Source of the DNA: a virus
Direction: 5' to 3' (one strand)
DNA: 42,401 nt
Virus record (IMG/VR): IMGVR_UViG_3300050024_000062
Location: 1 to 42,401 of that record
The notes under the pieces are model-generated. The model was not told the origin of the DNA and did no database searches. It saw only the letters and a program-made list of their open reading frames with translations. Below are positions 4,667-37,618 of this stretch, piece after piece; the stretch's first letter is position 1; the number at the start of each line of letters is the position of its first letter. The position numbers and the translations under genes were made by a program.

Positions 4667-5022
4667 TGTACGAAATCGAAGACGAATGTGGAAAGCCCGT
4701 TGACCCGGCGGATGTGATTCTTGCCAAGCAGGCGGCGGACACGCTCAACCGGCACTACCCGGGTCACCTGTGGGCTGTGCACGTGGACTCGATCGGGGGC
4801 GTTATGCACGTCAAAAACTACAACGTGAGCTTCAAATACGGCTACTTGCTCAAACTCCACCATGTCTATACGGACCCTGATCTTACATGCGTGATGAGGG
4901 CCGGAGGTGAAATCCTTGAGCGTTGTGCTCACCGTCGAGGCTGGTATCAGGACGGATTTACTCCTACCCATATCGAGGGCGTACGGCCTCAAGACCAGCC
5001 GTTTAAGGGGATCATAATCTAA
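4666..5022 (+). CDS. Conserved hypothetical protein before portal
   Basis: A 118-residue soluble protein with the phrase HYPGHLWAVHVDS followed by GGVMHVKNYNVS, an arrangement I associate with unannotated phage proteins encoded next to portal genes. It overlaps the portal start by one base (TAATG). No catalytic motif or membrane segment is visible. Function unknown. Confidence 0.7.
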   Translation: MYEIEDECGKPVDPADVILAKQAADTLNRHYPGHLWAVHVDSIGGVMHVKNYNVSFKYGYLLKLHHVYTDPDLTCVMRAGGEILERCAHRRGWYQDGFTPTHIEGVRPQDQPFKGIII

Positions 5023-6983
5023 TGGCAGACTGGCTGAAGCGGGCGAAAGAGGCATACCAGACGAGCACAACTTACGTCGATGCGAACTTCCGGCGCATGT
5101 GGGAGGATAACCTTCGCCATTTCCAGTCACGACACGCCGCCGGAAGTAAATACTACAAAGACTTCTACAAGTACCGCACCAAGGGATTTCGCCCCAAGAC
5201 CCGCGCGGCGATCCGAAACATCGAGGCCGCAGCCGTAGCCGCCTTTTTTGCGAATGAAGACGTAGTAAGCATCGAGCCGCAGAACGAAAACGATCAGGCC
5301 CAGGTGGCCTCGGCCGAACTCATGAAAGAGATCCTGCAATACCGGCTTACCAAGACAATCCCCTGGTTCCTCATCGCGATAGGCGCGGTACAGGACGCCA
5401 CTGTCCAGGGGGTTGTCGCCTCATACCAGCACTGGAAATACGAGGAAGGCGAATACGATGAACCGGAAATCGAGCTTCTCCCGGTTGAAAACGTGCGGAT
5501 CTCGCCCAACGCCAAATGGACGGACCCCGTAGGATCGAGCCCATACCTGATCATTCTTTGGCCCACCTACGTCATGGACGTGCGTGAAAGGATGAGCCAA
5601 ACCGACGATAAGACCGGGATGCCAAAGTGGAATACGCTCTCTGATGATCAGATCCGGGCGGCCATGAAGCAGACGTTTGATTCAACACGCCAGGTCCGGG
5701 AGCAAAGCCGCGAAGATAAGTATCAGAATACGAGCTCGGCGGACCTAATGGACTTCGATGTTGTGTGGGTCCACGAAAATCACATGAGGATTGCGGGAAA
5801 AGATCTCGTGTACTGGACCCTTGGGACCGAGCAGCTCCTGACCGAGCCCAAACCGCTCAAAGACGTGTACCTGCATGGCGAGCGGCCTGTCGTTATCGGG
5901 ACCTGCATGGTCGAGACCCACAAGCTCTATCCGGATTCCATTGTGCGGATCTCCCAGCCGCTTCAGCAGGAAATGAATGAGCTGTCTAACCAGCGCCAGG
6001 ACAACGTTAAGCTTGTCCTTAACAAACGCTATATTGTCCGACAGGGCAGTCAGACCGATCTTCAGTCGCTTCTTCGAAATGTGCCCGGCTCCGTCACCAT
6101 GGCCAACGACGTAACCGCAGACGTCCGTGAGATGGAGTTCACCGATGTCACGGCATCCTCCTACCAGGAGCAAGACCGCCTGAACGTCGATTATGACGAG
6201 CTGGTAGGAACCTTTTCGACCTCCACCATCCAGACGAACCGCAAGTTAAACGAGACCGTGGGCGGCATGAACATGCTTCGCGGAGGTGCCAACGCACTTA
6301 CCGAGTACCTGCTTCGCTGTCTTTCCGAGACCTGGATGGAAAAGGTCATGCGCCAGCTCGTAAAGCTCGAGCAGGCCTATGAGACCGACGAGGTAGTGCT
6401 CACAACCGCTGGTAACCAGGCACAACTCTTCCAAAAGTACGGCATCAATCAGATTACCGATGAGCTTTTAAACGCCGAGCTGACCACGAAAGTCAACGTG
6501 GGCATGGGCGCAACCGACCCCTTAAGTAAGGTCCATAACCTCCTTGCCGGTGTCGCCGCACTCGCCCAGGCCGCCCAGGCCGCGCAAATGCTCAATCTCA
6601 ATATGCCCGAGATCGAAAAAGAGGTCTTTGCCCGCATGGGCTACAAGGACGGCTCGCGGTTCATAAACCAGCAGGAACCGGGCCAGCAGCAAGACCCCGA
6701 GAAGATGCAGATGGGTCAAATGATCCAGCAGATGCAGCAAGTGATTCAGCAGCTTCAGCAGGAAGCCCAGCAGCTTCAAACGCAAGTGAAAAGCAAGCAA
6801 GACCAGACGGACGCGCAGTTGACCATCGCGGCGCTTAAAACCGACGCGGAGAACCGCAAGACGGCGGCCCAACTCCACGCGCAAATTCACGGAAAAATAA
6901 TGGATCTGGACTCAGCGCATATCCTTGCAGCTAACGCACAAGAGGCTCAGGTGGCGAACCAAGGCGGTGCAAATGGATCGTGA
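5022..6983 (+). CDS. Portal protein (P22-like)
   Basis: A 653-residue portal, the twelve-fold ring at the head vertex through which DNA enters and leaves. Evidence is position after terminase and before scaffold and coat, the length usual for P22-type portals (about 700), and the layout: an N-terminal helical segment (RRMWEDNLRHF, KTRAAIRNIEAAAVAAFF), a beta-rich wing and clip (residues about 130-330), an amphipathic core including the NRKLNETVGGMNML segment, and a long C-terminal Gln-rich coiled coil (about 555-640) like the barrel of P22 portal. The stop overlaps the next gene by 11 bases. Confidence 0.92.
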   Translation: MADWLKRAKEAYQTSTTYVDANFRRMWEDNLRHFQSRHAAGSKYYKDFYKYRTKGFRPKTRAAIRNIEAAAVAAFFANEDVVSIEPQNENDQAQVASAELMKEILQYRLTKTIPWFLIAIGAVQDATVQGVVASYQHWKYEEGEYDEPEIELLPVENVRISPNAKWTDPVGSSPYLIILWPTYVMDVRERMSQTDDKTGMPKWNTLSDDQIRAAMKQTFDSTRQVREQSREDKYQNTSSADLMDFDVVWVHENHMRIAGKDLVYWTLGTEQLLTEPKPLKDVYLHGERPVVIGTCMVETHKLYPDSIVRISQPLQQEMNELSNQRQDNVKLVLNKRYIVRQGSQTDLQSLLRNVPGSVTMANDVTADVREMEFTDVTASSYQEQDRLNVDYDELVGTFSTSTIQTNRKLNETVGGMNMLRGGANALTEYLLRCLSETWMEKVMRQLVKLEQAYETDEVVLTTAGNQAQLFQKYGINQITDELLNAELTTKVNVGMGATDPLSKVHNLLAGVAALAQAAQAAQMLNLNMPEIEKEVFARMGYKDGSRFINQQEPGQQQDPEKMQMGQMIQQMQQVIQQLQQEAQQLQTQVKSKQDQTDAQLTIAALKTDAENRKTAAQLHAQIHGKIMDLDSAHILAANAQEAQVANQGGANGS

Positions 6984-7269
6984 GACGGCAGGGCATCTCA
7001 AACGCGTAAACACCGGCCTTCTAGCCGAGACCCTGATTGATTCCCGGCTTGGCAAGTACCTCGTGGAAAAATCTGAAGTGGAAGTTACCGGGCTCATTGA
7101 GCTTTTAAGGGTCGCTGACCCTGAGGACGCAAAGGAAATAAGGCGCCTGCAAACCGATATCCAGATAGCCGAACGCGCTTTGATATGGCTACGGGAAGCT
7201 ATTCTGGCAGGTCAGCAGGCAGAGCACATAATTCACGATCAGGAAGGAAATGAAGATTATGGCAACTGA
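6973..7269 (+). CDS. Helical hypothetical protein between portal and scaffold
   Basis: A 98-residue, strongly helical protein with no membrane segment. The start at 6973 is preferred over 6925 because AAGGCGGTG lies upstream and the overlap with portal is smaller. The stop lies 11 bases inside the scaffold gene. A role in head assembly is possible from position only. Confidence 0.65.
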   Translation: MDRETAGHLKRVNTGLLAETLIDSRLGKYLVEKSEVEVTGLIELLRVADPEDAKEIRRLQTDIQIAERALIWLREAILAGQQAEHIIHDQEGNEDYGN

Positions 7270-8236
7270 CGCTACCCGCGAGGGCGTGACAGATGAGCAG
7301 AAACTTTTAGCCGAACAGGAAGACATGCCTACCAATCCGCTGGATCGGCGGCAGGCCCTTCTTGAATCGTTAGCTCAAAGCGTCCAGGCCGAGCGGGTCA
7401 AAGAGATGACCGCGGCAGGCCAGGAAGCACCCGAACCTTTTACCGAAGGCAAAGAGGCCGAAAAACCAGCCGAGGAGCAACCCGCAGGCGAGGAAACTCC
7501 GGTCGAGAAGGTGAAGCTGGTTATCGACGGTGAGGAGCGCGAAGTACCGCTATCCGAAGTTGTGGACGCAGGGAAGCGCACTCTTCAAAAGCAAGAGGCG
7601 GCAGACAAGCGTTTAGAGGAAGCAACCAAGCTGCTCAGGGAAGCAAAGGAAGTTCGTGAGACGCCACCCGCGAAGCCGGACGCGTCTAAAGACAGCGCTC
7701 CCAAGCCGGACGCCGAGAAGGCGGCAAAAGTCGCCAAGCTCACCCAGGCTATCCGGTACGGTGCAGACGACGAAGCAGCCAATGCGGCCCTGGAGCTATT
7801 GGAACTTGGGGCCACGAAAGGCCCGAACCTCGACGACGCCATGTCTGCCATGGAAGCAAGACTTGACGCTAAGCAGACGTCTCAGAAGATTTTCGACCAG
7901 TTCAAGACCGATTTTCCGCAGATTACGGGTAACCAAAGGCTTCTCAATTTTGCCGGCCAGATCGTAGATGAGAAGGTCCAGGCCAAAGGGGGGACCTATA
8001 CCGATTACTCCACCTATCAGGCTGCAGCAAAAGAGGTCATGGATCTTTTCGGGGTAAAACCCGAGGAGAAAAAACCGGTCGCGGATCTGTCTGAGAAAGA
8101 AGCCAAGAAAAAAGAAGCAAGCAGTAGCGGCGTCAAGCCTGCACAGGGACGATCACCCGCAGGCGAAGTTGCCGAGCCCGATAAATCAGCATCCGATATC
8201 GTTATGGATATGAAGCGCAGGCGCGGGCAGCTTTAA
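7259..8236 (+). CDS. Capsid scaffolding protein
   Basis: A 325-residue, very charged Glu/Lys/Ala-rich protein directly before the coat gene, the standard place for the internal scaffold that guides procapsid assembly and then leaves. It contains the segment VKLVIDGEEREVPLSEVVDAG, common in phage scaffolds, followed by a coiled coil (RTLQKQEAADKRLEEATKLL), a Pro-rich linker, a helical domain and a basic C-terminus (MKRRRG), which in P22 scaffold binds coat. An in-frame start at 7250 is also possible; 7259 has better spacing to the AGGAAGGA site. Confidence 0.85.
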   Translation: MATDATREGVTDEQKLLAEQEDMPTNPLDRRQALLESLAQSVQAERVKEMTAAGQEAPEPFTEGKEAEKPAEEQPAGEETPVEKVKLVIDGEEREVPLSEVVDAGKRTLQKQEAADKRLEEATKLLREAKEVRETPPAKPDASKDSAPKPDAEKAAKVAKLTQAIRYGADDEAANAALELLELGATKGPNLDDAMSAMEARLDAKQTSQKIFDQFKTDFPQITGNQRLLNFAGQIVDEKVQAKGGTYTDYSTYQAAAKEVMDLFGVKPEEKKPVADLSEKEAKKKEASSSGVKPAQGRSPAGEVAEPDKSASDIVMDMKRRRGQL

Positions 8237-8250
8237 ATAGGGAGGGGCCT

Positions 8251-9189
8251 ATGGCCGGTCAGGTCTGGGCGGTAAATACATTGGGCGGGTATATGTTCTC
8301 GCTGAACCTGAGTTCCAAACTCAGGACCGCGGTGCAACCCCGTTCCAAATTCAGGCAGCTCTGTGACGCTAAAGACGCCACGATGGGCGGCTTGAAAAAG
8401 GGCGATATTTTCACATGGGATCTTTACGCAGACGTCGGGAGGCAGGGAACGACCCTGCTTGAAACCAACACGATGCCCGAGACCAACTACACGGTCACTC
8501 AGGGAACTCTTCAGATTACGGAAATGGGGCAAGCCGTTCCGTATTCCGGGAAGTTAGACAACTTGAGCATGCATCCCCTGACCGAGATCATCAATAAGGT
8601 GCTCAAAAACGACGTGGCGAAGGCGCTCGATCTTCAGTCGTGGGCGCAGTACAACGCTACGCCTCTGCGGGTCTATCCCACGGGCGGGACATCCACCACG
8701 GCAGTTACCCTTACCACCAACGGGACAGCTGGCGGAACAAGCACCACGGCACTGAGGAAGGGTCATATCGGAGCGATCCGAGACCTCATGGTCGAGCGCA
8801 ACATCCCTCCGTACTCCGGAGACGATTATTTCTGCCTCGCGTGGCCCTCAACCCTTCGGACACTTATGGGCGATCTTGAATCCGTCCATCAGTATACAAC
8901 CGAAGGCTTCGGCATGATTATGGCCGGGGAAAAGGGACGCTACGAGCAGACCCGCTTTATCGAACAGACCAACGTTCCCAAGGCGGGCTGGACCTCGACC
9001 GACTGGGCCGTGTTTCTTGGCCAGGATACAGTTGCCGAGGCAATCGCGGTACCTGAGGAAATGCGCGGGAAAATCCCGACCGACTATGGAAGGTCGAAGG
9101 GCGTCGCCTGGTATTACCTGGGCGGCTTCGGCCTGGTTCAAAACGTTGTCTTGCAGTCCCGCGTAATCAAGTGGGATTCGCTCGCTTAA
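8251..9189 (+). CDS. Major coat protein
   Basis: A 312-residue major capsid protein that builds the icosahedral shell. The N-terminus (AGQVWAVNTLGGYM), the stretch PRSKFRQLCDAKDA and the conserved phrase TLLETNTMPETNYTVTQGTL match coat proteins of a broad group of podoviruses and related phages with an HK97-type fold. A good GGGAGGGG ribosome site precedes the start. It follows the scaffold gene by 14 bases. No proteolytic delta domain is seen, in keeping with a separate scaffold. Confidence 0.92.
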   Translation: MAGQVWAVNTLGGYMFSLNLSSKLRTAVQPRSKFRQLCDAKDATMGGLKKGDIFTWDLYADVGRQGTTLLETNTMPETNYTVTQGTLQITEMGQAVPYSGKLDNLSMHPLTEIINKVLKNDVAKALDLQSWAQYNATPLRVYPTGGTSTTAVTLTTNGTAGGTSTTALRKGHIGAIRDLMVERNIPPYSGDDYFCLAWPSTLRTLMGDLESVHQYTTEGFGMIMAGEKGRYEQTRFIEQTNVPKAGWTSTDWAVFLGQDTVAEAIAVPEEMRGKIPTDYGRSKGVAWYYLGGFGLVQNVVLQSRVIKWDSLA

Positions 9190-9207
9190 CCAGAAAGGAG
9201 GACCTCC

Positions 9208-9714
9208 ATGAGCAATATGTATGACGATGCGAAATACGGAGTTATCCGCCGGACCTGGTTCGGGCTGACTCCCAAAGTGGGCGGTGCGCAGGCTGCCGGG
9301 ATAACCCTTGGCACCACAAGCACCATGACCCCGATCACAACACCGACGAGATGGTATCCGGACCGGGGCCCTGTGAAGTTTGTAAAGGTGGGCTACCGGA
9401 CTCTGGCCACCATCAGCAACGCTTCCAGTTCAGCAAGGCCTCTTAGGATGCTGACACGTGGGGCTTCGGGCTCTCAGGCGTGTTTGCTGCGCCCGAACTC
9501 CTGTACTCAGGCTGCCTTCTCGGTTGCCTCCACAACGACTTTCACCGTCGCTCAGTGTAAATCCGGCGAATACGTGAAATTCCAGTGGGGTACCAGCCAG
9601 ACGATTAAAGGCGGCGTGGCTGCGGGGACGATGAAGAAAAACACGACCCTTGGCACCGTTGCGATCTTTGTTGACTGGGTTCCGATGTTTGGACCCCAGT
9701 GGGATACTTTTTAA
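9208..9714 (+). CDS. Putative minor head or decoration protein
   Basis: A 168-residue Thr/Ser/Gly-rich protein, probably all beta, directly after coat with a near-ideal AGGAGG ribosome site, which suggests high expression. It is the last gene before a strong terminator, so it belongs to the head transcription unit. Size and place suggest a head decoration or head-completion protein; no family is recognised. Confidence 0.65.
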   Translation: MSNMYDDAKYGVIRRTWFGLTPKVGGAQAAGITLGTTSTMTPITTPTRWYPDRGPVKFVKVGYRTLATISNASSSARPLRMLTRGASGSQACLLRPNSCTQAAFSVASTTTFTVAQCKSGEYVKFQWGTSQTIKGGVAAGTMKKNTTLGTVAIFVDWVPMFGPQWDTF

Positions 9715-9719
9715 CCTGT

Positions 9720-9748
9720 GGGGGCGGTGTAAAAGCCGCCCCTTTTTT
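9720..9748 (+). terminator. Rho-independent terminator after head genes
   Basis: A perfect 7-bp GC stem GGGGCGG (9721-9727) and CCGCCCC (9736-9742), an 8-base loop and a run of six T (9743-9748). It separates the head genes from the sugar-modification block. Downstream late genes would need read-through or antitermination, or another promoter that I did not find. Confidence 0.9.
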
Positions 9749-9756
9749 GGAGAAAT

Positions 9757-10821
9757 ATGAACATCGTCTTTCTCGCAAATCACTGCTGCATCCGGGTCCA
9801 AAAGATGGCGCTCCCTCTTATGGAAAAGGGGCACCACGTCCATCTCATTTCTCGGAAACTTCCCCATTACCACAGCAATTTTACCACCGTGACGTTGTGC
9901 GACCACGCCGGACAGTACATGGAGGCCATTAAGTTGCTGGCTCCCATTGCGGACCTGTTTCACTGCCACAACGAACCGTCGTATTACGTGACGATGGTAA
10001 AAGAGATCTGCGATAAGCCCGTCATCCTGGATGTGCACGATTCTTTCGCCGCCAGGTCGACCGCGGAGGAAGCAACCGAAAGGCTGGAAAATGGCCATAA
10101 CCACATCAGAATCACTACTGAGGAACGCAATAACTTTCAACTGGCCGACGGACTCGTTTTCCCGGCCTGGTCATTCGCAGAGGTCGTTAGAAAAGAATTC
10201 GGACTCACTCAACCTCATCTGGTACTTCCTTCCATGCTGCCGAGAAACTGGCATATCTACGACTGCGCGGAGTGGCTCGGCGGACTCGTCTATGAGGGCC
10301 GGGTCGATCTTAAAGCCGAAATCGCAAAGCATCCCGTTTCATCGGGCTTTAAGTATACGGACTATGAAGGACTCGCGCAAAAAGCTCAGGAAATAGGCCT
10401 GGACTTCCATCTCTACGCAGGCCGGGACGATAAACCCTACCTGAACACCTACGAGAAGATCTCCTTCACTCACGCCCCGCAGGAATACCCGAAGCTTTTG
10501 AAGTGTATTTCCCGGCATGATTGGGGACTTGTGGGCAACCTGGAATTTACCCCAGAATGGGACGTAGCCCTTCCGAACAAGCTTTTCGAGTATGTGGCAG
10601 CTTGCGTGCCGGTTGTGGCGATAAACGCCAAGGAATCGGCCGAGTTTATAGGGAAACACGGGATCGGCATCACGGTCAATTCCCTTGAAGGGCTTTGCGA
10701 AAGGTGGGGCGAGCATCGCCAGATACGTCAAAATCTCATCAAAATGAGGCCAAAACTCACTATGTGCGCACACATTCACGAACTTGAAGAGTTCTACGAT
10801 CAGGTGATAAATGGACGCTAA
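9757..10821 (+). CDS. Glycosyltransferase, GT4-like
   Basis: A 354-residue GT-B-fold glycosyltransferase. The N-terminal domain opens with MNIVFLANH and contains ADLFHCHNEPS (about 68-78), like the acceptor domain of GT4 enzymes. The C-terminal nucleotide-sugar domain carries the diagnostic segment LPNKLFEYVAACVPVVA (about 268-284). It probably transfers a sugar from a nucleotide-activated donor to a glycan, lipid or protein acceptor in the cytoplasm; donor and acceptor cannot be told. First gene of the cargo block, 8 bases after the terminator. It overlaps the following methyltransferase by 11 bases. Confidence 0.85.
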   Translation: MNIVFLANHCCIRVQKMALPLMEKGHHVHLISRKLPHYHSNFTTVTLCDHAGQYMEAIKLLAPIADLFHCHNEPSYYVTMVKEICDKPVILDVHDSFAARSTAEEATERLENGHNHIRITTEERNNFQLADGLVFPAWSFAEVVRKEFGLTQPHLVLPSMLPRNWHIYDCAEWLGGLVYEGRVDLKAEIAKHPVSSGFKYTDYEGLAQKAQEIGLDFHLYAGRDDKPYLNTYEKISFTHAPQEYPKLLKCISRHDWGLVGNLEFTPEWDVALPNKLFEYVAACVPVVAINAKESAEFIGKHGIGITVNSLEGLCERWGEHRQIRQNLIKMRPKLTMCAHIHELEEFYDQVINGR

Positions 10822-11407
10822 AGCCTATTGGAACGCGATTGCCCGCTCTGTTTGTGACCATGAGGCCGGAAATGTTCGCCATAACTGGCTTAAGAGCCAG
10901 GCGATCACCAAGTTCATGCTCGAATACCGCCTCGATCAGCGCAAGATACTCGAAATCGGAGTCGGAGCCGGGATCAACGCCGCGGCACTCTCAATCGCAT
11001 GCGGTGAGAACTTTGACTATCAAGGCGTGGACATCTCCCCGGTATTTGCAGCCTCAGCCAGGAAGTTTTTTGGTCTGCCCGTGAAGGTTTGCGAACTCGA
11101 TAAGATGCCGTTTCCAGACGATTCCTTCGATTATGTGATGGCCTTCGATGTACTCGAACACGTTCCGGTCAATGATCGACGATCTCTGTACATCGAACTG
11201 GATCGAGTCTTAAAACCTCGCGCAAAGTTTTTTATCAACAATCCTCTCGGGGAATCCCTGCACGATCCCAACTTCGATTTCAAATGGGGAGAATGTGATA
11301 TTTCAGGAGCTTGCGAACGCATGGGAATGCGAATTGAGCGGGTCCAGATGTATACGTGCCAACCGGGAACTCGTTATCAGTTCATCGTTTTGGGGAGGGG
11401 CTATTGA
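10811..11407 (+). CDS. Class I SAM-dependent methyltransferase
   Basis: A 198-residue Rossmann-fold methyltransferase of the Methyltransf_11 type. Motif I is ILEIGVGAG (46-54), the acidic ribose contact is in GVDIS, motif III follows as FDYVMAFDVLEHV, and ELDRVLKP matches the region after motif IV. Small-molecule methyltransferases of this type often methylate sugars in O-antigen clusters, and this gene lies between two glycosyltransferase genes, so a sugar or glycan substrate is the best inference. Overlaps the next gene by four bases. Confidence 0.88.
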   Translation: MDAKAYWNAIARSVCDHEAGNVRHNWLKSQAITKFMLEYRLDQRKILEIGVGAGINAAALSIACGENFDYQGVDISPVFAASARKFFGLPVKVCELDKMPFPDDSFDYVMAFDVLEHVPVNDRRSLYIELDRVLKPRAKFFINNPLGESLHDPNFDFKWGECDISGACERMGMRIERVQMYTCQPGTRYQFIVLGRGY

Positions 11408-12270
11408 AAGTTCAGATTGTAAATGACCTGCCGATGCAGTGGGAAGATGGATATCGCAAAGCGCTGGACGGCTATGATCAGGAATGGGTGAAGACTCCCC
11501 AAAATACCGGCAGTCTCGATGCCCGGATCTTCATGTGGTGTAGCGAGGACGCCGTAAAGTTTCAGCAGAGAAATTACGGACTGCCCACGCTTTGCTTCGT
11601 CAGGAGATATGAAGTCTATGCCGGTTTCGTCAATTACATGCCCTGGGATACGGTGGCGGAGATCGTCGTCGTAAACGATGTCATCGGTGAAATGGTCGAG
11701 CAGCTCGCCGGCAAAAAACCGCACGTCATCTACAATTCCATTATCCCCCAGCGTTGGACCTGGAAAGACCGTATCCCCGGCCCGAACGTAGCCATGGTGG
11801 GTTTTGTAAATCAGAAGAAGAACTTACCTCTTGCCCTGCAGGTCATGGCGTATCTGCCGGATGGCGTTTTGCACATCGCCGGTGAGATCCAGGATCCGCA
11901 GGTCATGGACTACGTGGTCAACCTGGCCAACTCGCTGAATGTTCAGGTCCGCTTCTACGGCGCCATTGCCCGCGATCACATGAATGAATGGCTCGACGAT
12001 AAGTCCTTTCTCATAAATCCGAGCATATCGGAGGGGTGTCCGAACTGTGTCCTTGAGGCCCTGGCCAAGGGGATAAGGCCCCTTGTCCATAACTGGCCTG
12101 GCGCAAGACAGCAATTCGGAGACCTGGTGTTTGACGGCGTAGACCAGGCCGTTCGAATGGCCGAGGCCTCAGATTACGACTCCCATTTCTATCGTCACCT
12201 GGCTGAAAAGCAATTCGGCGAGGCCAATTTCATGGAATTCCGGAGGGTTTTTGATGGGATCTTTGCCTAA
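11404..12270 (+). CDS. Glycosyltransferase, GT4-like (second)
   Basis: A 288-residue GT-B glycosyltransferase. The C-terminal domain shows VAMVGFVNQKKNLPLAL (start of the donor domain), LHIAGE, VRFYGAI and then the EX7E-type motif SEGCPNCVLEALAKG, all typical of GT4. The TTG start at 11404 is chosen because GGGGAGGGG lies just upstream and the reading begins with a beta strand MKVQIVND typical of the fold; the open frame extends up to 11356. It is shorter than usual GT4 enzymes (about 350-400), with a reduced N-terminal acceptor domain. Confidence 0.83.
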   Translation: MKVQIVNDLPMQWEDGYRKALDGYDQEWVKTPQNTGSLDARIFMWCSEDAVKFQQRNYGLPTLCFVRRYEVYAGFVNYMPWDTVAEIVVVNDVIGEMVEQLAGKKPHVIYNSIIPQRWTWKDRIPGPNVAMVGFVNQKKNLPLALQVMAYLPDGVLHIAGEIQDPQVMDYVVNLANSLNVQVRFYGAIARDHMNEWLDDKSFLINPSISEGCPNCVLEALAKGIRPLVHNWPGARQQFGDLVFDGVDQAVRMAEASDYDSHFYRHLAEKQFGEANFMEFRRVFDGIFA

Positions 12271-13132
12271 ATTCGTACTCATAGGGGCGGCGGGATACAT
12301 TGCTCCGAAGCACATGCAGGCGATAAAAGACTGCGGTGGGGATCTAGTCGCGGCCCTCGATCCTCACGAGTCGGTTGGAATCCTGGATAAGTTTTTCCCA
12401 GACTGCGAGTACTTCAATTCTGTCTGGCAGCTCCACAATTTCATTGATGAAAATCCCGTTGATTACGTATCCATTTGCAGCCCAACGGATAATCACCGCG
12501 TATCGGCGATAAACGGGATGCGATGGGGGGCTGACGTAATTTGTGAAAAACCACTTGTCTTGACGGTTGAAGAGCTGGAAACGCTTAGAAGGGTCGAGAT
12601 CCAGACCGGAAAACGCGTCTATACAATCCTGCAGCTCCGGTATCATCCGCTCATGGCCGAGATGAAGGCGGCGGCGCAGGGTAAGAATCACGAAGTCGAA
12701 ATCGACTACGCAACGCCTCGAGGCCGCTGGTATCACAATACCTGGAAGATCCGGCCTAATCAGTCCGGAGGGCTGGCGACCAATATCGGGATTCATCTTT
12801 TCGATACGGCAATCAACCTTTTCGGACCATCGGAGCGAGAACCCGAAATAACCCTGAACCTCGATGATGTTATGTCCGGAACACTCTACCTTCACCGGGC
12901 AACCGTGCGCTGGTCACTCTCGATCGATAGAGGTTGGAAGGCCCGACGCGTTTTTATGATCGATGGTAAAAACTTCGATCTGTCCAACGGATTTACAGAC
13001 CTTCATTCCGAGGTCTACCGGCAAGTGCTGGCTGGTAAAGGGACCGGGATTGACCATGTGGCGCCCTCGGTGCGCATGACTGAGACCTTGAGGGGACTTT
13101 CGAATGGACAATCTACCGCCCACTGTGCATGA
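12254..13132 (+). CDS. wlbA: WlbA/WbpB-like UDP-sugar 3-dehydrogenase
   Basis: A 292-residue Gfo/Idh/MocA oxidoreductase. GAAGYIAPKH (11-20) is the dinucleotide-binding loop of the WlbA/WbpB subgroup, EKPLV (98-102) holds the conserved catalytic-region Lys-Pro, and LQLRYHP, RGRWYHNTWK (156-165) and SGGLATNIGIHLFD closely resemble WlbA. Those enzymes oxidise the C3 hydroxyl of UDP-N-acetylglucosaminuronic acid for synthesis of diacetamido-uronic acids in LPS. The start at 12254 follows GGAGGG. It overlaps the acetyltransferase gene by 29 bases; in bacteria the two act in one pathway, separated by an aminotransferase step for which no gene is seen here. Confidence 0.85.
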   Translation: MGSLPKFVLIGAAGYIAPKHMQAIKDCGGDLVAALDPHESVGILDKFFPDCEYFNSVWQLHNFIDENPVDYVSICSPTDNHRVSAINGMRWGADVICEKPLVLTVEELETLRRVEIQTGKRVYTILQLRYHPLMAEMKAAAQGKNHEVEIDYATPRGRWYHNTWKIRPNQSGGLATNIGIHLFDTAINLFGPSEREPEITLNLDDVMSGTLYLHRATVRWSLSIDRGWKARRVFMIDGKNFDLSNGFTDLHSEVYRQVLAGKGTGIDHVAPSVRMTETLRGLSNGQSTAHCA

Positions 13133-13586
13133 GACGGCGATAGTTGATCATGGGTCTCACATAGGACCTGGAAGTAAAGTATGGCACTGGAGCCATATCA
13201 GTTCGGGGGTCTTTATCGGGGATAACTGCATGATCGGCCAGGGCGTCTTCGTCGGTGAGCAAGTCATGATCGGAAACGGTTGCAGGATTCAAAACGGAGC
13301 GCAGATCTTCACGGGAGTCACCCTTGAAGAGGACGTATTCATAGGACCGCACGTCGTTTTCACAAATGTGCTGTACCCAAGAGCGTTCAAGAGCCAACGT
13401 GATTCCTTCAAGAAAACTCTTGTCAAAAAAGGGGCAATGATCGGGGCCAATGCAACGATTCTTTGCGGGGTCACAATCGGAGGGGGGGCAATGATCGGGG
13501 CTGGATCGGTGATTACGAGGGACATCTCCCCCTTCGAGGTTGTGAGCGGGGCAAGTAAACATTTGAGATTCATATGGAAGGATTAA
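13104..13586 (+). CDS. wlbB: WlbB/WbpD-like sugar N-acetyltransferase
   Basis: A 160-residue left-handed beta-helix acetyltransferase with hexapeptide repeats. VWHWSHISSGVFIGDN, GQGVFVG, NGAQIFTGVTLEEDVFIGP and FTNVLYPRA correspond to the WlbB/WbpD subgroup, which acetylates the 3-amino group of UDP-GlcNAc(3NH2)A using acetyl-CoA. Later repeats (IGANATILCGVTIG, IGAGSVIT) complete the helix. The related FdtC/QdtC acetyltransferases for dTDP-amino sugars are an alternative; the WlbA-like neighbour favours WlbB. Confidence 0.86.
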   Translation: MDNLPPTVHETAIVDHGSHIGPGSKVWHWSHISSGVFIGDNCMIGQGVFVGEQVMIGNGCRIQNGAQIFTGVTLEEDVFIGPHVVFTNVLYPRAFKSQRDSFKKTLVKKGAMIGANATILCGVTIGGGAMIGAGSVITRDISPFEVVSGASKHLRFIWKD

Positions 13587-13588
13587 AA

Positions 13589-13882
13589 ATGGCAGCAGAA
13601 CTCGACAGGTCAAAGCAGTTTGGGCAGGTTTACGGGGTAGCGGGAGCATCCTTTGAGCAGGACGGCAAACTCTTCAACGGAAAAGGCCTTGAGGTAGCTC
13701 AAGAGATATACGACGAGGCAAATCAGGCGCCGGCCGATCCGATTGCACAACTAAAATCCGCCCTGGCCGAGCTGGGCATCACCGAGGTGACATCGGCGAA
13801 CAAAAAAGACGTTCTGGCGCTTCTGGCTCAGGTTGTTTCTGAACCCGAAGGTCAGGTTACCGACTCGGAGGTTTCCGCGTAA
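13589..13882 (+). CDS. Small protein with HeH/LEM-like C-terminus
   Basis: A 97-residue protein. The N-terminal half contains FGQVYGVAGASFEQDGKLF, a pattern seen in small phage proteins encoded near capsid or tail genes. The second half (IAQLKSALAELGITEV followed by ANKKDVLALLAQV) resembles a HeH/LEM-like fold. The start at 13589 follows GAAGGA with normal spacing; 13574 in frame is less well placed. It seems a misplaced structural gene inside the sugar block. Overlaps the next start by one base. Confidence 0.65.
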   Translation: MAAELDRSKQFGQVYGVAGASFEQDGKLFNGKGLEVAQEIYDEANQAPADPIAQLKSALAELGITEVTSANKKDVLALLAQVVSEPEGQVTDSEVSA

Positions 13883-14544
13883 TGTTGCCAGGATTTTGTA
13901 TGATATGCGCCTTCGAGATGGTCCATATTCTCGATGATCTTTGGGCGTGTCCCGAATGCAGTCTGGTCTCGAGCCAACTGCCGGCCGATATTTCGCGTTA
14001 CGATGAGGCATATCACGCCAAATATGAGGTATATGCCAAGACAGACCTCGGGAAAAAACTGACTCAGGCACGTTGGGACCTGGTCAAAAAGTACTTGCCA
14101 CATGGTGTTATCCTCGACTTCGGAAGCGGATCTGGACATTTTGCGCGGGAGAACCCAAACGGTGTGCATCGGGTGATTCAATACGACATCAATCCGTTTT
14201 CGAATAACTCAAGCGTAAGCACCCTGGATACCCGCGTCAATGCGGTGACTTTTTGGGATTCCTTGGAGCATGTGGAAGATCCTTATGATTTGCTCGATTA
14301 TCTCAGGCCCGAATTCATCTTCATGACTGTTCCGGATGCGTTCTCGATACCCACGCATTTCATGAAAAGCTGGAGGCATTACCGACGCGGGGAGCACGTT
14401 CACTACTTTTCTCGGCCTTCTCTTCGGAGACTCGCGGAGCGGTTGGGATATGCAATCCTGGAATTCTCAACAATGGAGGGCGACCTGAGAAGTCCGGAAG
14501 CTCCGGATTGGCTGCTCACCATGGCGGCGGAGAAGATCCGATGA
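13882..14544 (+). CDS. SAM methyltransferase with N-terminal zinc ribbon
   Basis: A 220-residue protein. The N-terminus has two cysteine pairs (C6 and C9, C23 and C26) typical of a zinc ribbon. The rest is a Methyltransf_23-like Rossmann domain: motif I ILDFGSGSGHFA, an acidic residue in QYDIN, and WDSLEHVEDP. The later HYRRGEHVHYFS segment is typical of class I methyltransferases found in polysaccharide clusters. A sugar or lipid-linked glycan substrate is likely given the neighbours. Start overlaps the previous stop as TAATG; stop overlaps the next start as ATGA. Confidence 0.83.
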   Translation: MLPGFCMICAFEMVHILDDLWACPECSLVSSQLPADISRYDEAYHAKYEVYAKTDLGKKLTQARWDLVKKYLPHGVILDFGSGSGHFARENPNGVHRVIQYDINPFSNNSSVSTLDTRVNAVTFWDSLEHVEDPYDLLDYLRPEFIFMTVPDAFSIPTHFMKSWRHYRRGEHVHYFSRPSLRRLAERLGYAILEFSTMEGDLRSPEAPDWLLTMAAEKIR

Positions 14545-15650
14545 AAACCGCAGTCGTTGTTCGATATGGTGGAATTGGAGATATGTTCCAGGCATCTTCC
14601 GTTCTGCCCGGCCTGAAGGCCCAGGGGTATCGAGTGGTAATGAACACGACACCATCGGGGCAGGAAGTCCTTAAGCACGATCCGCACATAGACGACTGGA
14701 TCATCCAGCAACCCGGGGAAGTGGCAAGAGAGAAGCTGAGCGATCATTGGCGCTACATCTCCGAGCGGTGCGATAAGTTCATAAATCTTTCTGAAACGGT
14801 TGAAGGGGTCCTTTATCCCACCGTGGAAAGGGCCGCTTTCTACTGGCCCAAAGACGCCCGACATTTCTTGTGCGACATAGACCAGGTGCATTTGACTCAC
14901 CTGGTGGCCGGTGTTCCACCCGGACCATGCTACAGGTTCTACGCCACGCCAAAAGAGCAGAAATGGGCGTTCAAGATCCGGAAGCGCATGGGCGGTAAAG
15001 TCATCCTCTGGGTCCTTTCCGGATCGTCGGTACATAAGGTTTGGCCTTACCTGGACCAATGCATTGCCAGGATCATGCTCAGGCTGCCGGATGTGAAAGT
15101 GGTCCTGGTGGGTGAGGAGCTGGCGCAGATACTCGAGATGGACTGGAAAAACGAACCTCGCGTAATCGGCAAGTGCGGCAAATGGTCGGTGAGAAAGACT
15201 CTGGCCTTTGCCCACGAAGCGGACCTGGTTATCGGCCCCGAAACCGGCGTCCTTTACGGGATGGGTTTACAGAAAGTTCCAAAGATCGTAACGCTGTCTC
15301 ATTCTTCGATGGAAAATCTGTATAACCACTGGCGAAACGTGGTGGCGTTAATGCCTGAAGCCTGTGAGTGCTATCCGTGCCACCGGCTGCACAACAGCTT
15401 TGATTTCTGCCACAGGGACGAGGAAACCGGCGTCGCGCTCTGCCAGGCCAAGATAAGCCTCGATGCCATGTGGGACGCCATAAAATTTGTAATGGAGAAA
15501 ATAGGTGAGAAAAATAACGATCTCTCTTCTGGTTTTAGCCGTGCTGGTCTTGCTGACGATTCCGGCGCTTGCCGGCGGCCCCTACCTGGTTGCGACTCCG
15601 GTAACGGGAGCAACATCATACAATGTGCAGGGCCTTCCAGCGTCGATTAA
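14541..15650 (+). CDS. GT9-like (heptosyltransferase family) glycosyltransferase
   Basis: A 369-residue protein. MKTAVVVRYGGIGDMFQASSVLPGL is the N-terminal signature of the GT9 heptosyltransferase family, and ADLVIGPETGVLYGMGLQKVP corresponds to the family's conserved D-x-GP-TG-x-H region, though the usual His is replaced by Leu-Tyr. GT9 enzymes add heptose to the LPS inner core. A Cys-rich segment (EACECYPCHR) follows. The last 48 residues overlap another gene in a different frame and look unlike the family, so the functional part probably ends near FVMEKIG. Start chosen by ATGA coupling and an upstream GGAG. Confidence 0.8.
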   Translation: MKTAVVVRYGGIGDMFQASSVLPGLKAQGYRVVMNTTPSGQEVLKHDPHIDDWIIQQPGEVAREKLSDHWRYISERCDKFINLSETVEGVLYPTVERAAFYWPKDARHFLCDIDQVHLTHLVAGVPPGPCYRFYATPKEQKWAFKIRKRMGGKVILWVLSGSSVHKVWPYLDQCIARIMLRLPDVKVVLVGEELAQILEMDWKNEPRVIGKCGKWSVRKTLAFAHEADLVIGPETGVLYGMGLQKVPKIVTLSHSSMENLYNHWRNVVALMPEACECYPCHRLHNSFDFCHRDEETGVALCQAKISLDAMWDAIKFVMEKIGEKNNDLSSGFSRAGLADDSGACRRPLPGCDSGNGSNIIQCAGPSSVD

Positions 15651-15855
15651 CGCTACGGGGCTGGCGCCAGACTCCACTTACGGTTTCAAGCTCGATTTGT
15701 CGTCGCTTCCAGTCGGGTCATATACGGTAACAGCAATGGCATGTTTGACTGATGTCAATTTCGGACTGGAGTGCTCAGCGCCGTCAAGCCCTTTCGTATT
15801 CAGCAAACCAGGGCCACCATCAGTTCCAATAGGACTCGGATTGTCTACCAAGTGA
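15505..15855 (+). CDS. Exported protein with signal peptide
   Basis: A 116-residue protein starting with GTG after a GGAG site. Residues 1-23 form a clear Sec signal peptide (MRKITISLLVLAVLVLLTIP, then ALA before a likely cut). The mature part has beta-strand-like repeats (TSYNVQGLPASINATGL, TYGFKLDLSSLPVGSYTVTA) resembling a fibronectin-III or Ig-like domain with two cysteines. It overlaps the GT9 gene by 146 bases in another frame. A secreted protein at this place in a phage operon is unusual; function unknown. Confidence 0.7.
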   Translation: MRKITISLLVLAVLVLLTIPALAGGPYLVATPVTGATSYNVQGLPASINATGLAPDSTYGFKLDLSSLPVGSYTVTAMACLTDVNFGLECSAPSSPFVFSKPGPPSVPIGLGLSTK

Positions 15856-16673: not shown

Positions 16674-18053
16674 ATGCCTGAGCGCATTCCACAATCAGTC
16701 ACCATTCGGGTCGCGTTCCTTGCCTACCTGGCGAGCGACCACGTTACCCCGGCCACCGGTAAGACCATTGTCGTCACGATCAGCAAGAACTGTGCAGCCT
16801 ACGGTAACCCTTCAGCGGGAGCAACAAACGCCACGGCAGTCGCAAACGGACTGTACTACGTGGACCTGTCGACAACGGACACCGGGACGCTCGGGCCTCT
16901 CGCCGTCCATGGGGCTGAAGGCACAATCGATAACGTTGATGTGCTCTATAACGTCGTAAACGCCAACAACGCAGGTCTGGCGGCACTTCCCAACGCGGCG
17001 GCGCAAGCAGCGGGCGGTTTATTCACAATGGGCTCAGGGGCCGGGCAGATCAACCAGGCCGCTAATGGTCAGGTCGATATTAACGTGAGCACCATCAAGG
17101 GCCAGGCAGTGACCTGCGGAGCAGGCGTAACGGTCCCAGCATCACTGGCAGCTGTGGGCTCAAATATGGGCACCGTCAGCTCAGTTACCGGGAACGTTTC
17201 TGGCAATGTCGTCGGCACGGTAGGGAAATCTGCCATGACCCTGGCCTCGACAGATGTTACCGGCAACCTGCCTGCCGATCTCAAGAATGTGACGGTGGGC
17301 GTAGACTTCTCCGCAACCATGAAGACGGCCCTGAATGCGGCGACTCCAGCGGTTACCGTTTCCGATAAGACCGGATTTTCTCTTTCAGCCTCTGGCGTTC
17401 AGGCTATCTGGGACGCTCTCACTTCGGCTCTTGTCACCGCAGGAAGTATCGGGAAACGGATAGTCGATTACCTCACCGGAGACATCTTCGCGCGGATCGG
17501 GGCACCCTCCGGAGCTTCTGTTTCGGTGGACATCTCGGCCATAAACGCCAAGACCACGAATTTACCGGCGAGTCCCGCCGCGGTGGGTTCAGCCATGACC
17601 CTATCGGCGGCAGCAGTAGATCTCATCTGGGATGAAGCACAAGCCGGCCACACAACCGCTGGAACCTTCGGAAAATACCTCGATGCTCAAGTGTCCTTGG
17701 CGGGAGGAGGAAGTCTCACGGCTCCTGCAATAGCTGATGCTGTTTGGGATGAAGCTATATCGGGTCATCTGGGCCTTGGGTCGACAGGTGCAAAATTAAG
17801 TGCGGCCTCGGGGGCTTCAGGGGCCGGGGCCATAGCGTGGACCTACACGGTAAACGATACCTCAAACGGGAATCCCATTTCGGGAGTCAGGGTGTGGATT
17901 ACGACGGATCAGGCCGGAACCAACGTGATCGCCAGCGGTGAAACGAATCAGTTCGGCATAGCGACTTTCTACCTCGATGCCGGACCCGTCTATGTGTGGT
18001 GCACAAAAGCGGGCTATGAATTTAATAATCCAGACGTGGAGACAGTGAGCTAA
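16674..18053 (+). CDS. Fibre-like structural protein
   Basis: A 459-residue Ala/Thr/Val-rich protein. An N-terminal domain is followed by repetitive beta-helix-like sequence (TVSSVTGNVSGNVVGTVG), then two copies of an IWDEA/VWDEA-type segment (near 320 and 365) that occur in phage appendage proteins, and a C-terminal domain (about 385-455: NGNPISGVRVWITTD, GIATFYLDAG) resembling a carboxypeptidase-regulatory-like/Ig fold. These features suggest a trimeric fibre or baseplate component. The stop overlaps the next start (TAATG). Confidence 0.75.
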   Translation: MPERIPQSVTIRVAFLAYLASDHVTPATGKTIVVTISKNCAAYGNPSAGATNATAVANGLYYVDLSTTDTGTLGPLAVHGAEGTIDNVDVLYNVVNANNAGLAALPNAAAQAAGGLFTMGSGAGQINQAANGQVDINVSTIKGQAVTCGAGVTVPASLAAVGSNMGTVSSVTGNVSGNVVGTVGKSAMTLASTDVTGNLPADLKNVTVGVDFSATMKTALNAATPAVTVSDKTGFSLSASGVQAIWDALTSALVTAGSIGKRIVDYLTGDIFARIGAPSGASVSVDISAINAKTTNLPASPAAVGSAMTLSAAAVDLIWDEAQAGHTTAGTFGKYLDAQVSLAGGGSLTAPAIADAVWDEAISGHLGLGSTGAKLSAASGASGAGAIAWTYTVNDTSNGNPISGVRVWITTDQAGTNVIASGETNQFGIATFYLDAGPVYVWCTKAGYEFNNPDVETVS

Positions 18054-18805
18054 TGGGCGGATCTGGGGGTGGGACACCAATACTCGGGGGCGTAAATGCT
18101 CCGGCAGCCTATGATTTCAGTGTATCGGGCCTCGATATCATCACTCAGGCATATCGCGAAATAGGCTACAAGGGGCCGGAAGACTCGCTTGAGGGATGGG
18201 AGATCCAGGACGGCCTCTTGAAGCTGAACCTCCTTGTGAAGTCCTGGATGGGTCCAAATAACCCGATAGCCAAGGGCCTCAAGGTCTGGCAAAGAGCGCG
18301 AGGAGTACTCGTCCTTTCGGCTAAAAATTCCTTCTCGCTTCAGCCTGGTGGGGACCTGGATATCCCGGTCCCGGTGAACCTCATTTCGGCAACGCTTAAA
18401 ACATCAGCCGGAATAGTGGTAACGACTCTCGACCCGATCCTTGCCATTCAATACGAGATGATTCCGAATAAATCGGCAGTCGGAACCCCGATGCAATATT
18501 ACTTCGAGCGCGGAATTGGGGCATCGTCCTTCGGCCTTGATTGCATCCCGAGTGATCTCACCATGACCATAAATCTACTCTATCTCAGGATTTTGCAGGA
18601 CTTTGACGGTCAAACGGACGTTCCTGATTTTCCCCAGGAATGGTACAGGACCTTGGTTTACAATTTGGCAATGGAGCTCGCGCCCATGTGCGGAAGGCCC
18701 ATTTCCCAGGACCTGCAAAGCCTTGCTCAATCGTCTTTTGCCGATGCGAATACGGTTGAGCCGGAGCGCACGGTTTTCTTTTTCGAGCCGGGAAGGGATT
18801 ACTAG
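18053..18805 (+). CDS. P22 gp4-like head-tail adaptor
   Basis: A 250-residue protein with the layout of P22 gp4-type tail accessory factors: an N-terminal helix bundle (SGLDIITQAYREIGY, EIQDGLLKLNLLVKSW), a beta-rich middle and the C-terminal phrase FPQEWYRTLVYNLAMELAPMCG, typical of this family. In P22 gp4 binds below the portal ring and keeps packaged DNA from leaking. It directly precedes the gp10-like gene, as in P22. Confidence 0.82.
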   Translation: MGGSGGGTPILGGVNAPAAYDFSVSGLDIITQAYREIGYKGPEDSLEGWEIQDGLLKLNLLVKSWMGPNNPIAKGLKVWQRARGVLVLSAKNSFSLQPGGDLDIPVPVNLISATLKTSAGIVVTTLDPILAIQYEMIPNKSAVGTPMQYYFERGIGASSFGLDCIPSDLTMTINLLYLRILQDFDGQTDVPDFPQEWYRTLVYNLAMELAPMCGRPISQDLQSLAQSSFADANTVEPERTVFFFEPGRDY

Positions 18806-20206
18806 ATGCCCTCAGCTTCAATGATCGGCGCCATGTACCGGCCAAGAGATGTAAGTTACCCGAATTGCAACTGGTGGTTCGATACCATCCAGGCCGGCCA
18901 AGACGTAAAGGAGCGGCTGTATCGGACGCCCGGGCTCGCTCTTTTTGCGGATACGGGTGTTAACTCCGAAACCAGAGGTATTAAGGTCCCGGCAAACGAT
19001 CCGAATTACATGTACGCAGTGGTAGGAAACCGGGCGTTCAGGATCGATGCGCTTGGGAATATCTTTACGGCTACCGGAAATCTTTCAATCGTTTCCGGCC
19101 ACGTGCAGATGGAATCAAACGGCGTTCAACTCATGATCATTGACGATCAGGGTGGATATATTTTCGATTTTGCGACCCTTGTCCTAACGCAGATCACCGA
19201 TATTGACTTCTCGATCACAAAGGGCACCCTGACGTATCAGGACGGCTATTTTATCTATACCGATGGGGAGATTTTTGCTCTTTCCAGTCTCTATGACGGA
19301 ACGCAATGGTCATCCCTGGACATGGCTCAGGCCGAAGGATGGCCGGACCCGATACTTGCCGGGCTCTCGGATCACCGGGAACTCTGGCTTTTCGGGACCG
19401 AGACAACCGAAATCTGGATGGATACCGGGGCGTCCACGTTTCCTTTTGAGCGAGTCGCCGGCGGATTTATCGAAGAAGGACTGGGCGCACGGTTCGCGTA
19501 TGCAAAGCTCGATAATACCGTCTGCTGGTTGTCTAACCATCGCACGATCCTGCGCGCTTCCGGGTATACCCCCGCAAAGATCAGCCCTGATTGGCTTGAC
19601 TGGGAAATTTCCCGGATGAGCACCGTAGATGACGCTTTTGCCTTCAGCTACGTCCTGGCCGGGTCATACATGCTGGATATTACTTTTCCCTCCGCCGATA
19701 AGACCTTTTTTTACAATGCCAAAACGGGACTCTGGCATCGAAAATCAAGCGGCGTGGACGGAGGCAGACACCGGGCGAACTGTTACGCCTATTTCCAGAA
19801 AAAGCATTACGTGGGCGATGCTCAGACCGGTAAAATATACGAAATGAGCATGAACGCCTTAGATGATGCCGGGGATCCCATCAGGCGCGTCTGGACGTTT
19901 CCCAATATCTCCAGCCAGAACGATTATCTGATTTATCACAGTGAGGTGGCAATAGAGTTCAAGCCCGGGATCGGCCTGGAAGACGGCTCGATTCCCTATG
20001 CGGAACTGTGCTGGTCTGAAGGCCTGGAATCTACCTGGAAGGCTCCAAGGAAGCGAAACGTGGGCGCCGTTGGCGATTATGATCGCCGTACGAAGTGGCA
20101 GCAATTGGGAGCGTCTCGGAATAGAACGTACCGGTTGACGGTTTCAGATCCGGTCGACTGGGAAGTGCGTGATTACCGGCCGAACTACTCGGAGGGGACC
20201 TCCTGA
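18806..20206 (+). CDS. P22 gp10-like tail hub / DNA stabilisation protein
   Basis: A 466-residue protein of the size of P22 gp10 (472). The sequence is mostly beta with blade-like repeats and conserved phrases (DHRELWLFGTETTEIWMDTG, FERVAGGFIEEGLGA, CWLSNHRTILRASGY) matching gp10-type tail hubs. Gp10 forms the six-fold hub that closes the portal channel and carries tailspikes. Neighbours on both sides agree with the P22 order. Confidence 0.86.
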   Translation: MPSASMIGAMYRPRDVSYPNCNWWFDTIQAGQDVKERLYRTPGLALFADTGVNSETRGIKVPANDPNYMYAVVGNRAFRIDALGNIFTATGNLSIVSGHVQMESNGVQLMIIDDQGGYIFDFATLVLTQITDIDFSITKGTLTYQDGYFIYTDGEIFALSSLYDGTQWSSLDMAQAEGWPDPILAGLSDHRELWLFGTETTEIWMDTGASTFPFERVAGGFIEEGLGARFAYAKLDNTVCWLSNHRTILRASGYTPAKISPDWLDWEISRMSTVDDAFAFSYVLAGSYMLDITFPSADKTFFYNAKTGLWHRKSSGVDGGRHRANCYAYFQKKHYVGDAQTGKIYEMSMNALDDAGDPIRRVWTFPNISSQNDYLIYHSEVAIEFKPGIGLEDGSIPYAELCWSEGLESTWKAPRKRNVGAVGDYDRRTKWQQLGASRNRTYRLTVSDPVDWEVRDYRPNYSEGTS

Positions 20207-20721
20207 TGGCCCAGTTAGCCAAACATCCCCGGACACCCATGCTGGATAAAGCCGGAAATCTCACAAGGGAGTGGAGCGATTGGTTTACCCTGAAGGTGAC
20301 CATTCCCATTTCCGATAATACCGTGGCCATTGATCAGAAGGCCAATCCGATTACGGGCAGCTCCGGGCATTTCGTCGTCCTGGATGCGGACGGCCAGGCG
20401 CTGGACGGAGGAGATAATCCCGATCTGACCCATCTTCAGCACGATCACAGCTCGGTTGTGAAAGGTGGAACCCTTCCTCCGCTAGGCGGGGGCACATTCC
20501 CGCTATCGGCAGCGGTGGCGACGACGGTCCCCGATACGGCCATAACCGCGAATTCCTTTATTGCGATTTTTCCGACCAACGCGGCGGCGGCCACACTCAT
20601 GGGAAGCGCTAAGAGCTTGTACGAATCAGCAAGGGTCGCGGGAGCGTCTTTTACCGTCAGTACGGCAAGTGGTGTGGCGGCGGCCGGGACTGAGACTTTC
20701 GAATATGTGAGGATTGGATGA
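20206..20721 (+). CDS. Putative tail appendage or needle-position protein
   Basis: A 171-residue protein occupying the place of P22 gene 26 (tail needle), but the sequence does not look like a long coiled coil. The N-terminus HPRTPMLDKAGNLTREWSDWF is a motif common at the start of phage tail proteins that dock on a tail hub, and the C-terminal part is beta-rich and Ala/Gly/Thr-rich. I read it as a small tail appendage. The start overlaps the previous stop by one base; the stop overlaps the next start. Confidence 0.7.
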   Translation: MAQLAKHPRTPMLDKAGNLTREWSDWFTLKVTIPISDNTVAIDQKANPITGSSGHFVVLDADGQALDGGDNPDLTHLQHDHSSVVKGGTLPPLGGGTFPLSAAVATTVPDTAITANSFIAIFPTNAAAATLMGSAKSLYESARVAGASFTVSTASGVAAAGTETFEYVRIG

Positions 20722-21206
20722 TGCCGTACTTAAAACCTTTGAGCCCAAATGATTACGCCCTGCTTTATCCGATAATCACGGCGAACGAGCCTTTCGCGGA
20801 AAAAACGAGTCTGCAGGCCATGGTTCTGGCGCTTGCCCAGCAGGAAGGCTGGACCGTTTGGGATGGGGATAAAATCATAGGCGTAATTTCTCTTTCAAAT
20901 TTCCGAGTGCTCCACAGCGTCATGATACATGTCGTCCTGGATAAGGCATACATTCGCAAATGGGCATCCCGTCAAATGGTGCGTCAGGTCTTTCATTATC
21001 TTTTCAGCCCCGATCTGCTCGACCTGGTGAAAGTCTATTCCTATGCCATTCCTGGAGTCACGACGGACGTAGAAAGACAATTGGAGCAATTGGGATTTAA
21101 GGAAGAGGGCATCGATAGGAAGGGATTTGTAGCTCCGAACGGCGAATGCTTCGACATGGTGAACTACTCGATGCTCAAAGAGGAATGCAAATGGATAAGA
21201 AAATAA
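20718..21206 (+). CDS. GNAT-fold protein in P22 gene 14 position
   Basis: A 162-residue protein with a GNAT acetyltransferase layout: an N-terminal strand-helix (LKPLSPNDYALLYPII), the central strands WTVWDGDKIIGVISLS and SVMIHVVLDKAYIRKW, a helix after the acetyl-CoA strand, and a C-terminal EQLGFKEEGIDRKGFV typical of GNATs. The usual Q/R-x-x-G-x-G/A pyrophosphate loop is not clear. P22 gene 14, in the same place, belongs to a related family (DUF2824) needed for head assembly or ejection, so a structural rather than enzymatic role is possible. Confidence 0.72.
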   Translation: MMPYLKPLSPNDYALLYPIITANEPFAEKTSLQAMVLALAQQEGWTVWDGDKIIGVISLSNFRVLHSVMIHVVLDKAYIRKWASRQMVRQVFHYLFSPDLLDLVKVYSYAIPGVTTDVERQLEQLGFKEEGIDRKGFVAPNGECFDMVNYSMLKEECKWIRK

Positions 21207-37590: not shown

Positions 37591-37618
37591 GTTCCTTACT
37601 AAACTCCGGAGGTGGCAA

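Follow-up and report, generated by a model that had tools for sequence, protein, structure and literature searches.

Sugar enzymes carried by temperate phages are known from the Gtr/Oaf serotype-conversion cassettes, which feature a membrane transferase or flippase near the att site. A different arrangement has been described in mycobacteriophages. In Corndog (cluster O), an O-methyltransferase and three glycosyltransferases (GTs), gp35-38, lie between portal and protease, and a modified capsid was proposed (PMC4351075); later work is reported to have shown a capsid and tail tube glycosylated by such GTs (PMC12363180). As far as these accounts go, Che8 (cluster F) and the cluster J phages also carry GT and O-methyltransferase genes inside the virion structural operon, and gp17 of the cluster J phage LittleE is a fusion of a methyltransferase (MT) with a GT. 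The same placement, a hallmark of a phage virion-glycosylation locus, was found for a block of sugar-modification genes at positions 9757-15650 of the linear IMG/VR record IMGVR_UViG_3300050024_000062, the 42,401 bases of which are the window analysed here. The mycobacteriophage loci differ in belonging to siphoviruses of Gram-positive hosts, and no GT9 or WlbA/WlbB enzyme is named for them in the sections cited, whereas here one GT9 gene is a near-universal core gene accompanied by a variable cassette. As Corndog and cluster J already exemplify such a system, the novelty resides in other enzymes, a different host range, the near-universal core enzyme and its presence in two capsid lineages.

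Considering its position, the slot shared by two capsid lineages, the cargo and the operon structure, the block is best explained as a late-expressed locus that would decorate virion proteins with a glycan through a conserved core step followed by variable elaboration, with a probability of roughly 0.65. Virion decoration was one of two uses envisaged in a sequence-only reading of this DNA, and it is now the leading one. The genes named in that reading (two GT4-like and one GT9-like transferases, two MTs, a WlbA-like and a WlbB-like enzyme) were all recovered through Pfam, PDB, profile and structure evidence, and are presented below with their anchors; relatives are denoted by L numbers.

8251-9189, plus strand: major capsid protein (MCP), upstream anchor of the slot (phrog_1357, 1.1e-15)
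9208-9714, plus strand: 168-aa protein directly 3' of the MCP gene, 23% Ser+Thr (position, composition, L006 homologue)
9720-9743, plus strand: intrinsic terminator, 9 bp stem and U-tract, the latter touching the Shine-Dalgarno sequence of GT4a
9757-10821, plus strand: GT4-like glycosyltransferase, GT4a (PF13439, 6e-4, below cut-off; family profile)
10811-11407, plus strand: S-adenosylmethionine (SAM) methyltransferase 1, MT1 (PF08241, 3.8e-17)
11401-12270, plus strand: GT4/GT1 glycosyltransferase, GT4b (PF00534, 2.2e-11)
12254-13132, plus strand: WlbA/WbpB-like 3-dehydrogenase of the Gfo/Idh/MocA family (Pfam, 1.7e-16; WbpB, PDB 3o9z, 1.6e-70)
13104-13586, plus strand: WlbB-like hexapeptide acetyltransferase (Pfam, 7.9e-28; WlbB, PDB 3mqg, 3e-47)
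13574-13882, plus strand: 102-aa probable virion protein (tblastn homologues)
13882-14544, plus strand: SAM methyltransferase 2, MT2 (phrog_6564, 7.3e-32; PF13489, 4.2e-15)
14541-15650, plus strand: GT9-like glycosyltransferase of heptosyltransferase fold, the core gene (alignments, model, Foldseek, synteny)
18053-18805, plus strand: neck protein, like head-tail adaptor Ad3 (phrog_12985, 2.6e-20; phrog_637, 6.5e-4)
18806-20206, plus strand: head closure protein Hc3, downstream anchor (phrog_578, 6.2e-87)

The constancy of the GT9 gene beside the capsid gene was established from both sides. A search seeded with the MCP, which has 474 relatives in IMG/VR, provided 80 loci. Of these, 28 extend for 7 kb or more on the downstream side of the MCP gene, and 27 of them encode GT9, mostly as a fusion with an MT; because these loci are the closest MCP relatives, this figure applies to the present lineage and not to all phages with that capsid. 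Conversely, of 63 GT9-seeded loci that reach over 6 kb upstream, 60 show this MCP upstream of GT9 in the same orientation, at a distance of 0.7-9.6 kb; one of the three exceptions, L123, aligns over just 49 residues. With the GT9 profile, at least 590 IMG/VR stretches were reached, as well as prophage or metagenome-assembled genome (MAG) loci in Polaromonas, Paraburkholderia, Aromatoleum, Pseudothauera, Magnetococcales, Methylophaga and others, the hosts of homologous prophages being mostly Gram-negative. Strains whose prophages contain GT9 or MT-GT9 include Paraburkholderia sp. C35, P. rhynchosiae WSM 3937, Aromatoleum anaerobium LuFRes1 and Azorhizobium doebereinerae UFLA1-100. By these comparisons GT9, usually in the fused form MT-GT9, belongs to the fixed core of a large podovirus lineage, and the view of the block as a single odd case in one phage has to be abandoned, with variability limited to the genes between MCP and GT9. 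The full gene set had also been called unusual, which holds for cultured phages, as a search of 50,697 cultured records with MT-GT9 gave nothing beyond weak matches to the MT domain alone, and fails for uncultured ones. Single-sequence scans of viral contigs with GT4a and the Gfo/Idh/MocA protein gave no relatives, because one-sequence peptide patterns are too strict, and the GT9- and MCP-seeded loci were used instead.

Indirect evidence for a capsid-linked role of GT9 is strongest in the two other exceptions, L117 and L122, and in L118 and L204, all four of them HK97-type phages (portal phrog_12, protease, MCP phrog_10, adaptor phrog_442; the PHROG tests were carried out on L117, L118 and L122, and L204 was assigned by homology). 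In these four, the GT9 or MT-GT9 gene sits between the HK97-type MCP and an Ad1-type head-tail adaptor, the slot that it occupies in the podovirus lineage too, although by blastp neither the MCP nor the portal of one lineage is significantly similar to that of the other. The GT9s of the HK97-type phages group in a single well-supported clade of the GT9 family, for which the simplest reading would be a single transfer with the place beside the capsid gene retained. L119 was left out of this count, its MCP being on the other strand.

As judged from gene content, the interval between MCP and GT9 is a variable cargo slot next to a fixed GT9. The shortest intervals hold one small gene, as in L004, and longer ones carry GT2, GT4 and GT17 transferases, FkbM and TylF methyltransferases, PIG-L deacetylase, sulfotransferases, a Maf-like PF01973 domain, Gfo/Idh/MocA and hexapeptide enzymes; some also hold large proteins, for example a pectate-lyase-like one. 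Among the Pfam-recognisable slot representatives listed, almost all are GTs, MTs or sugar enzymes, and two are HNH endonucleases. In 20 long records, essentially all MT11 matches fall within the slot, GT1-type matches occur only in cassette carriers, and one GT2 was found elsewhere. The sequence-only reading had suggested a homology search for the same set in related phages, and this search identified L128, which has GT4a, MT1, GT4b, WlbA-like, WlbB-like and GT9 genes in the window's order with 30-55% identity, and subsets in L006, L127, L154 and L165. A host gene cluster joined by misassembly, the artefact feared in that reading, is thereby rejected, as set and order recur in an independent contig. 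For the six cassette carriers, 2-3 changes suffice on the MCP and GT9 trees; the GT4a cassette is thus mostly clade-bound, and its frequent exchange is not supported.

The GT9-like protein alone matches no Pfam and no PHROG family. PF01075 is passed by the homologue in L004 (1.2e-5), with weak scores in the other homologues and none in the window's own protein. A profile of the MT-GT9 fusion matched only methyltransferases in the PDB, so a GT9-only profile was used instead; its match to 3tov was still weak (E 0.02, near the detection limit), and the family was decided by structure. The AlphaFold2 model (pLDDT 85, pTM 0.84) has a GT-B fold, and its top Foldseek matches include 3tov, WaaF, WaaC and TibC (5e-15 to 1e-8), with GT9 relatives as the best ones (3tov, 5e-15; 1psw, 2e-14). 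With WaaF and WaaC it shares this fold, the GD near the N terminus (D14), S162-x3-K166 and the E/D-T-G motif (E234-T235-G236); it differs from them by a Glu at a position where WaaC has an Asp, by four cysteines, by its location in a virion operon and by sequence similarity near the detection limit. The cysteines (C277, C280, C290, C301) lie near the C-terminal helix and are invariant over an alignment of 53 diverse sequences. TibC, which transfers heptose onto protein, is described with a four-Cys iron finger (C339/342/358/370) and a catalytic Asp (PMC4358343), and TibC/Aah enzymes (BAHT) resemble the GT9-like protein in fold, cysteine cluster and catalytic-type Asp. However, the cysteine spacing differs, other GT9 enzymes may have clusters of this kind too, and the N-terminal beta-barrel is lacking: the model begins directly with a Rossmann lobe, where most relatives, proteins of 500-550 aa with GT9 as their C-terminal part, have the MT domain. 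BAHT membership was considered and, given the missing barrel, is not claimed; there is no sequence match to TibC either. ADP-heptose is possibly the donor. Homology stops near residue 320, and the tail beyond has no homologues and low model confidence, as if an original stop had been lost; a 116-aa open reading frame with a signal-peptide-like N terminus (15505-15855) begins within the 3' end of the gene. GT9-like genes in two delta-proteobacterial MAG contigs (L120:3228-5755, with two in tandem, and L121:959-2955) branch as an outgroup to the GT9 family of the phages.

With regard to the remaining enzymes, the WlbA-like and WlbB-like names given from sequence alone proved correct, with full-length similarity and catalytic residues in place; K99 of EKP and H181 of NIGxH in the WlbA-like protein are conserved across homologues. 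The Bordetella/Pseudomonas wlb/wbp pathway has these high-scoring enzymes in common with the block, which contains just two of those needed. A profile of six GT4a homologues matches Gtf3/GtfC-type glucosyltransferases in the PDB (1.7e-5), enzymes that extend a protein-bound glycan and are its nearest profile match, and homologues with 45-55% identity occupy the equivalent slot in L006, L127, L128, L154 and L165; Foldseek also indicates a GT-B fold, a result given little weight due to the poor model (pLDDT 60). GT4b has homologues of 30-43% identity in L127, L128, L154 and L165, and MT2, which differs from the MT fused to GT9 in relatives, has homologues in L013, L133 and L184. The 102-aa gene has tblastn matches downstream of the MCP in 18 loci (the window's own extract counted), including the cultured E. 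coli phage Bas95, and hence sugar-modification genes and core structural genes are intermingled here.

In the mechanism proposed, the GT9-like enzyme, with the MT usually fused to it in relatives, would perform the conserved core step, and the genes of the MCP-GT9 interval would constitute the variable recipe for the remaining glycan. In this phage, that recipe would comprise the GT4-type transferases GT4a and GT4b, MT1 and MT2, and the WlbA/WlbB pair, the last of which would contribute to a sugar of 3-acetamido-uronic type built from UDP-sugar intermediates of the host. Working in the cytoplasm, the enzymes would modify a capsid or decoration protein during head assembly, and cytoplasmic glycosylation of a virion protein is favoured by TibC being among the fold neighbours, the Gtf3/GtfC profile, the reliance on host intermediates and the lack of any membrane-spanning protein in the cassette by hydropathy. 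The acceptor is probably the MCP or a protein of the 9208-9714 type; the latter, with a 33% identical homologue at the equivalent place in L006, is a candidate head decoration protein and possible glycan acceptor. The biological use may be shielding, adsorption or stability.

The genes from GT4a through GT9 overlap by 1-29 nt and form one overlapping polycistron within the late operon. Only 13 nt separate the terminator end from the GT4a ATG, which leaves no space for a promoter between them, and a consensus scan found no plus-strand promoter-like site within 7232-13563. Strict terminators within 1.2 kb 3' of the MCP gene occur in 20 of 219 relatives versus 4 of 219 upstream controls. The location inside the structural operon and right after a terminator, as first noticed from sequence alone, is confirmed, here between coat and neck genes, and supports a late-type position; expression is likely to be late. 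In L165, an int-alpA RNA (RF02996) match just under the gathering score lies at 5722-5786, between the post-MCP gene and the GT4a homologue.

The wider gene content, given below, indicates a temperate podovirus-like phage, from TerL, portal, MCP and neck genes together with an integrase and a CI-like repressor.

2498-4189, plus strand: TerL
5022-6983, plus strand: SU10-type portal
22208, plus strand: ejection protein
24940, plus strand: SLT-domain protein
27697, plus strand: fibre-like protein
30161-31333, minus strand: integrase
36818-37756, minus strand: CI-like repressor
minus strand: Erf-like protein

In cultured phages, MCP relatives of about 49-50% identity occur in PTXU04 and Bas95, both of E. 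coli, and in Vibrio phages, and no near DNA match to the record was found among cultured phages. At 20718-22195, among neck and ejection genes, a GNAT-type acyltransferase (phrog_4470) adjoins a radical-SAM protein (PDB 9ccb, 3e-5), a possible second modification pair. Group I introns (Rfam RF00028) split the MCP gene at three different positions in three relatives (L128:1635-1868; L165:4087-4385; L154:2044-2286, below the gathering score), with endonuclease frames that by eye are GIY-YIG-like in L128 and LAGLIDADG-like in L154; the window's MCP gene is uninterrupted.

The main alternative is that the enzymes alter host lipopolysaccharide (LPS) or another envelope glycan, either late in infection, keeping released virions off debris and infected cells, or in the lysogen, by masking the receptor. 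Such a role is made possible by the LPS ancestry of the GT9 family and of WlbA/WlbB, and it gains from the mostly Gram-negative hosts and from the integrase and repressor in the record. Even so, it is unlikely. The slot remains beside the MCP across two capsid lineages, no promoter lies behind the terminator, and the integrase is 15 kb off on the opposite strand; among long relatives, a tyrosine integrase was recognised in just 9-11 of 30, and a serine recombinase in 1 of 17 tested, which speaks against a core gene that serves lysogeny only, although contigs may be incomplete. In contrast to Gtr/Oaf cassettes, the block is placed in a late operon away from att and the immunity region, includes many more genes, as had been pointed out from sequence alone, and has no membrane transferase or flippase of that kind by hydropathy. 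A lysogenic change of LPS, the other use envisaged earlier, is accordingly disfavoured for the core gene. Several observations do weigh against virion decoration: WaaF and WaaC outrank TibC in the Foldseek search; the toolkit also fits LPS, as most GT9 enzymes work on its core and O-antigens are where WlbA/WlbB sugars are known; the cultured MCP relatives Bas95 and Vibrio D65 are without GT9, and the capsid fold thus does not need it; and the cassette has no WlbC-type aminotransferase or UDP-GlcNAc 6-dehydrogenase (neither PF01041 nor PF00984 was found in six records, which include fragments) and would rely on host intermediates.

Considerably less probable is a hitch-hiking moron, namely a mobile bacterial sugar cluster in a tolerated gap with no virion or LPS function for the phage. 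The wide variation of cargo and the two HNH endonucleases in the slot would suit it, but GT9 is near-universal with catalytic-type residues invariant over the 53 sequences, the recognisable cargo consists mostly of glycan enzymes, and the gene order is repeated in L128. Hypermodification of phage DNA by the transferases and MTs is the most improbable, since, although some phage GTs do attach sugars to DNA bases (cited in PMC12619734), GT9 and WlbA/WlbB are not DNA enzymes, the block adjoins the MCP gene, and a thymidylate-synthase-family hydroxymethylase was not found in the window and was matched in just 2 of 26 records.

Returning to virion decoration, the hundreds of relatives with the core enzyme in the same place suggest that these phages may sugar-coat their own particles and swap the recipe. 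In its widest form, held tentatively at a little less than even odds, the proposal is lineage-wide capsid glycosylation in phages of mostly Gram-negative hosts, in which a near-obligate heptosyltransferase-fold enzyme, usually MT-fused, would prime the glycan, an adjacent variable cassette would set the type of virion glycan, and the core enzyme would have moved between two unrelated capsid lineages keeping its slot. If true, virion glycosylation would rank among the core features of a large environmental lineage of phages with mostly Gram-negative hosts rather than as a mycobacteriophage curiosity, with cassettes that vary as O-antigen clusters do in bacteria. Testable prophages would then be at hand in isolates of Paraburkholderia, Aromatoleum, Pseudothauera and Azorhizobium, and the purpose of phage capsid sugars would be opened to genetics.

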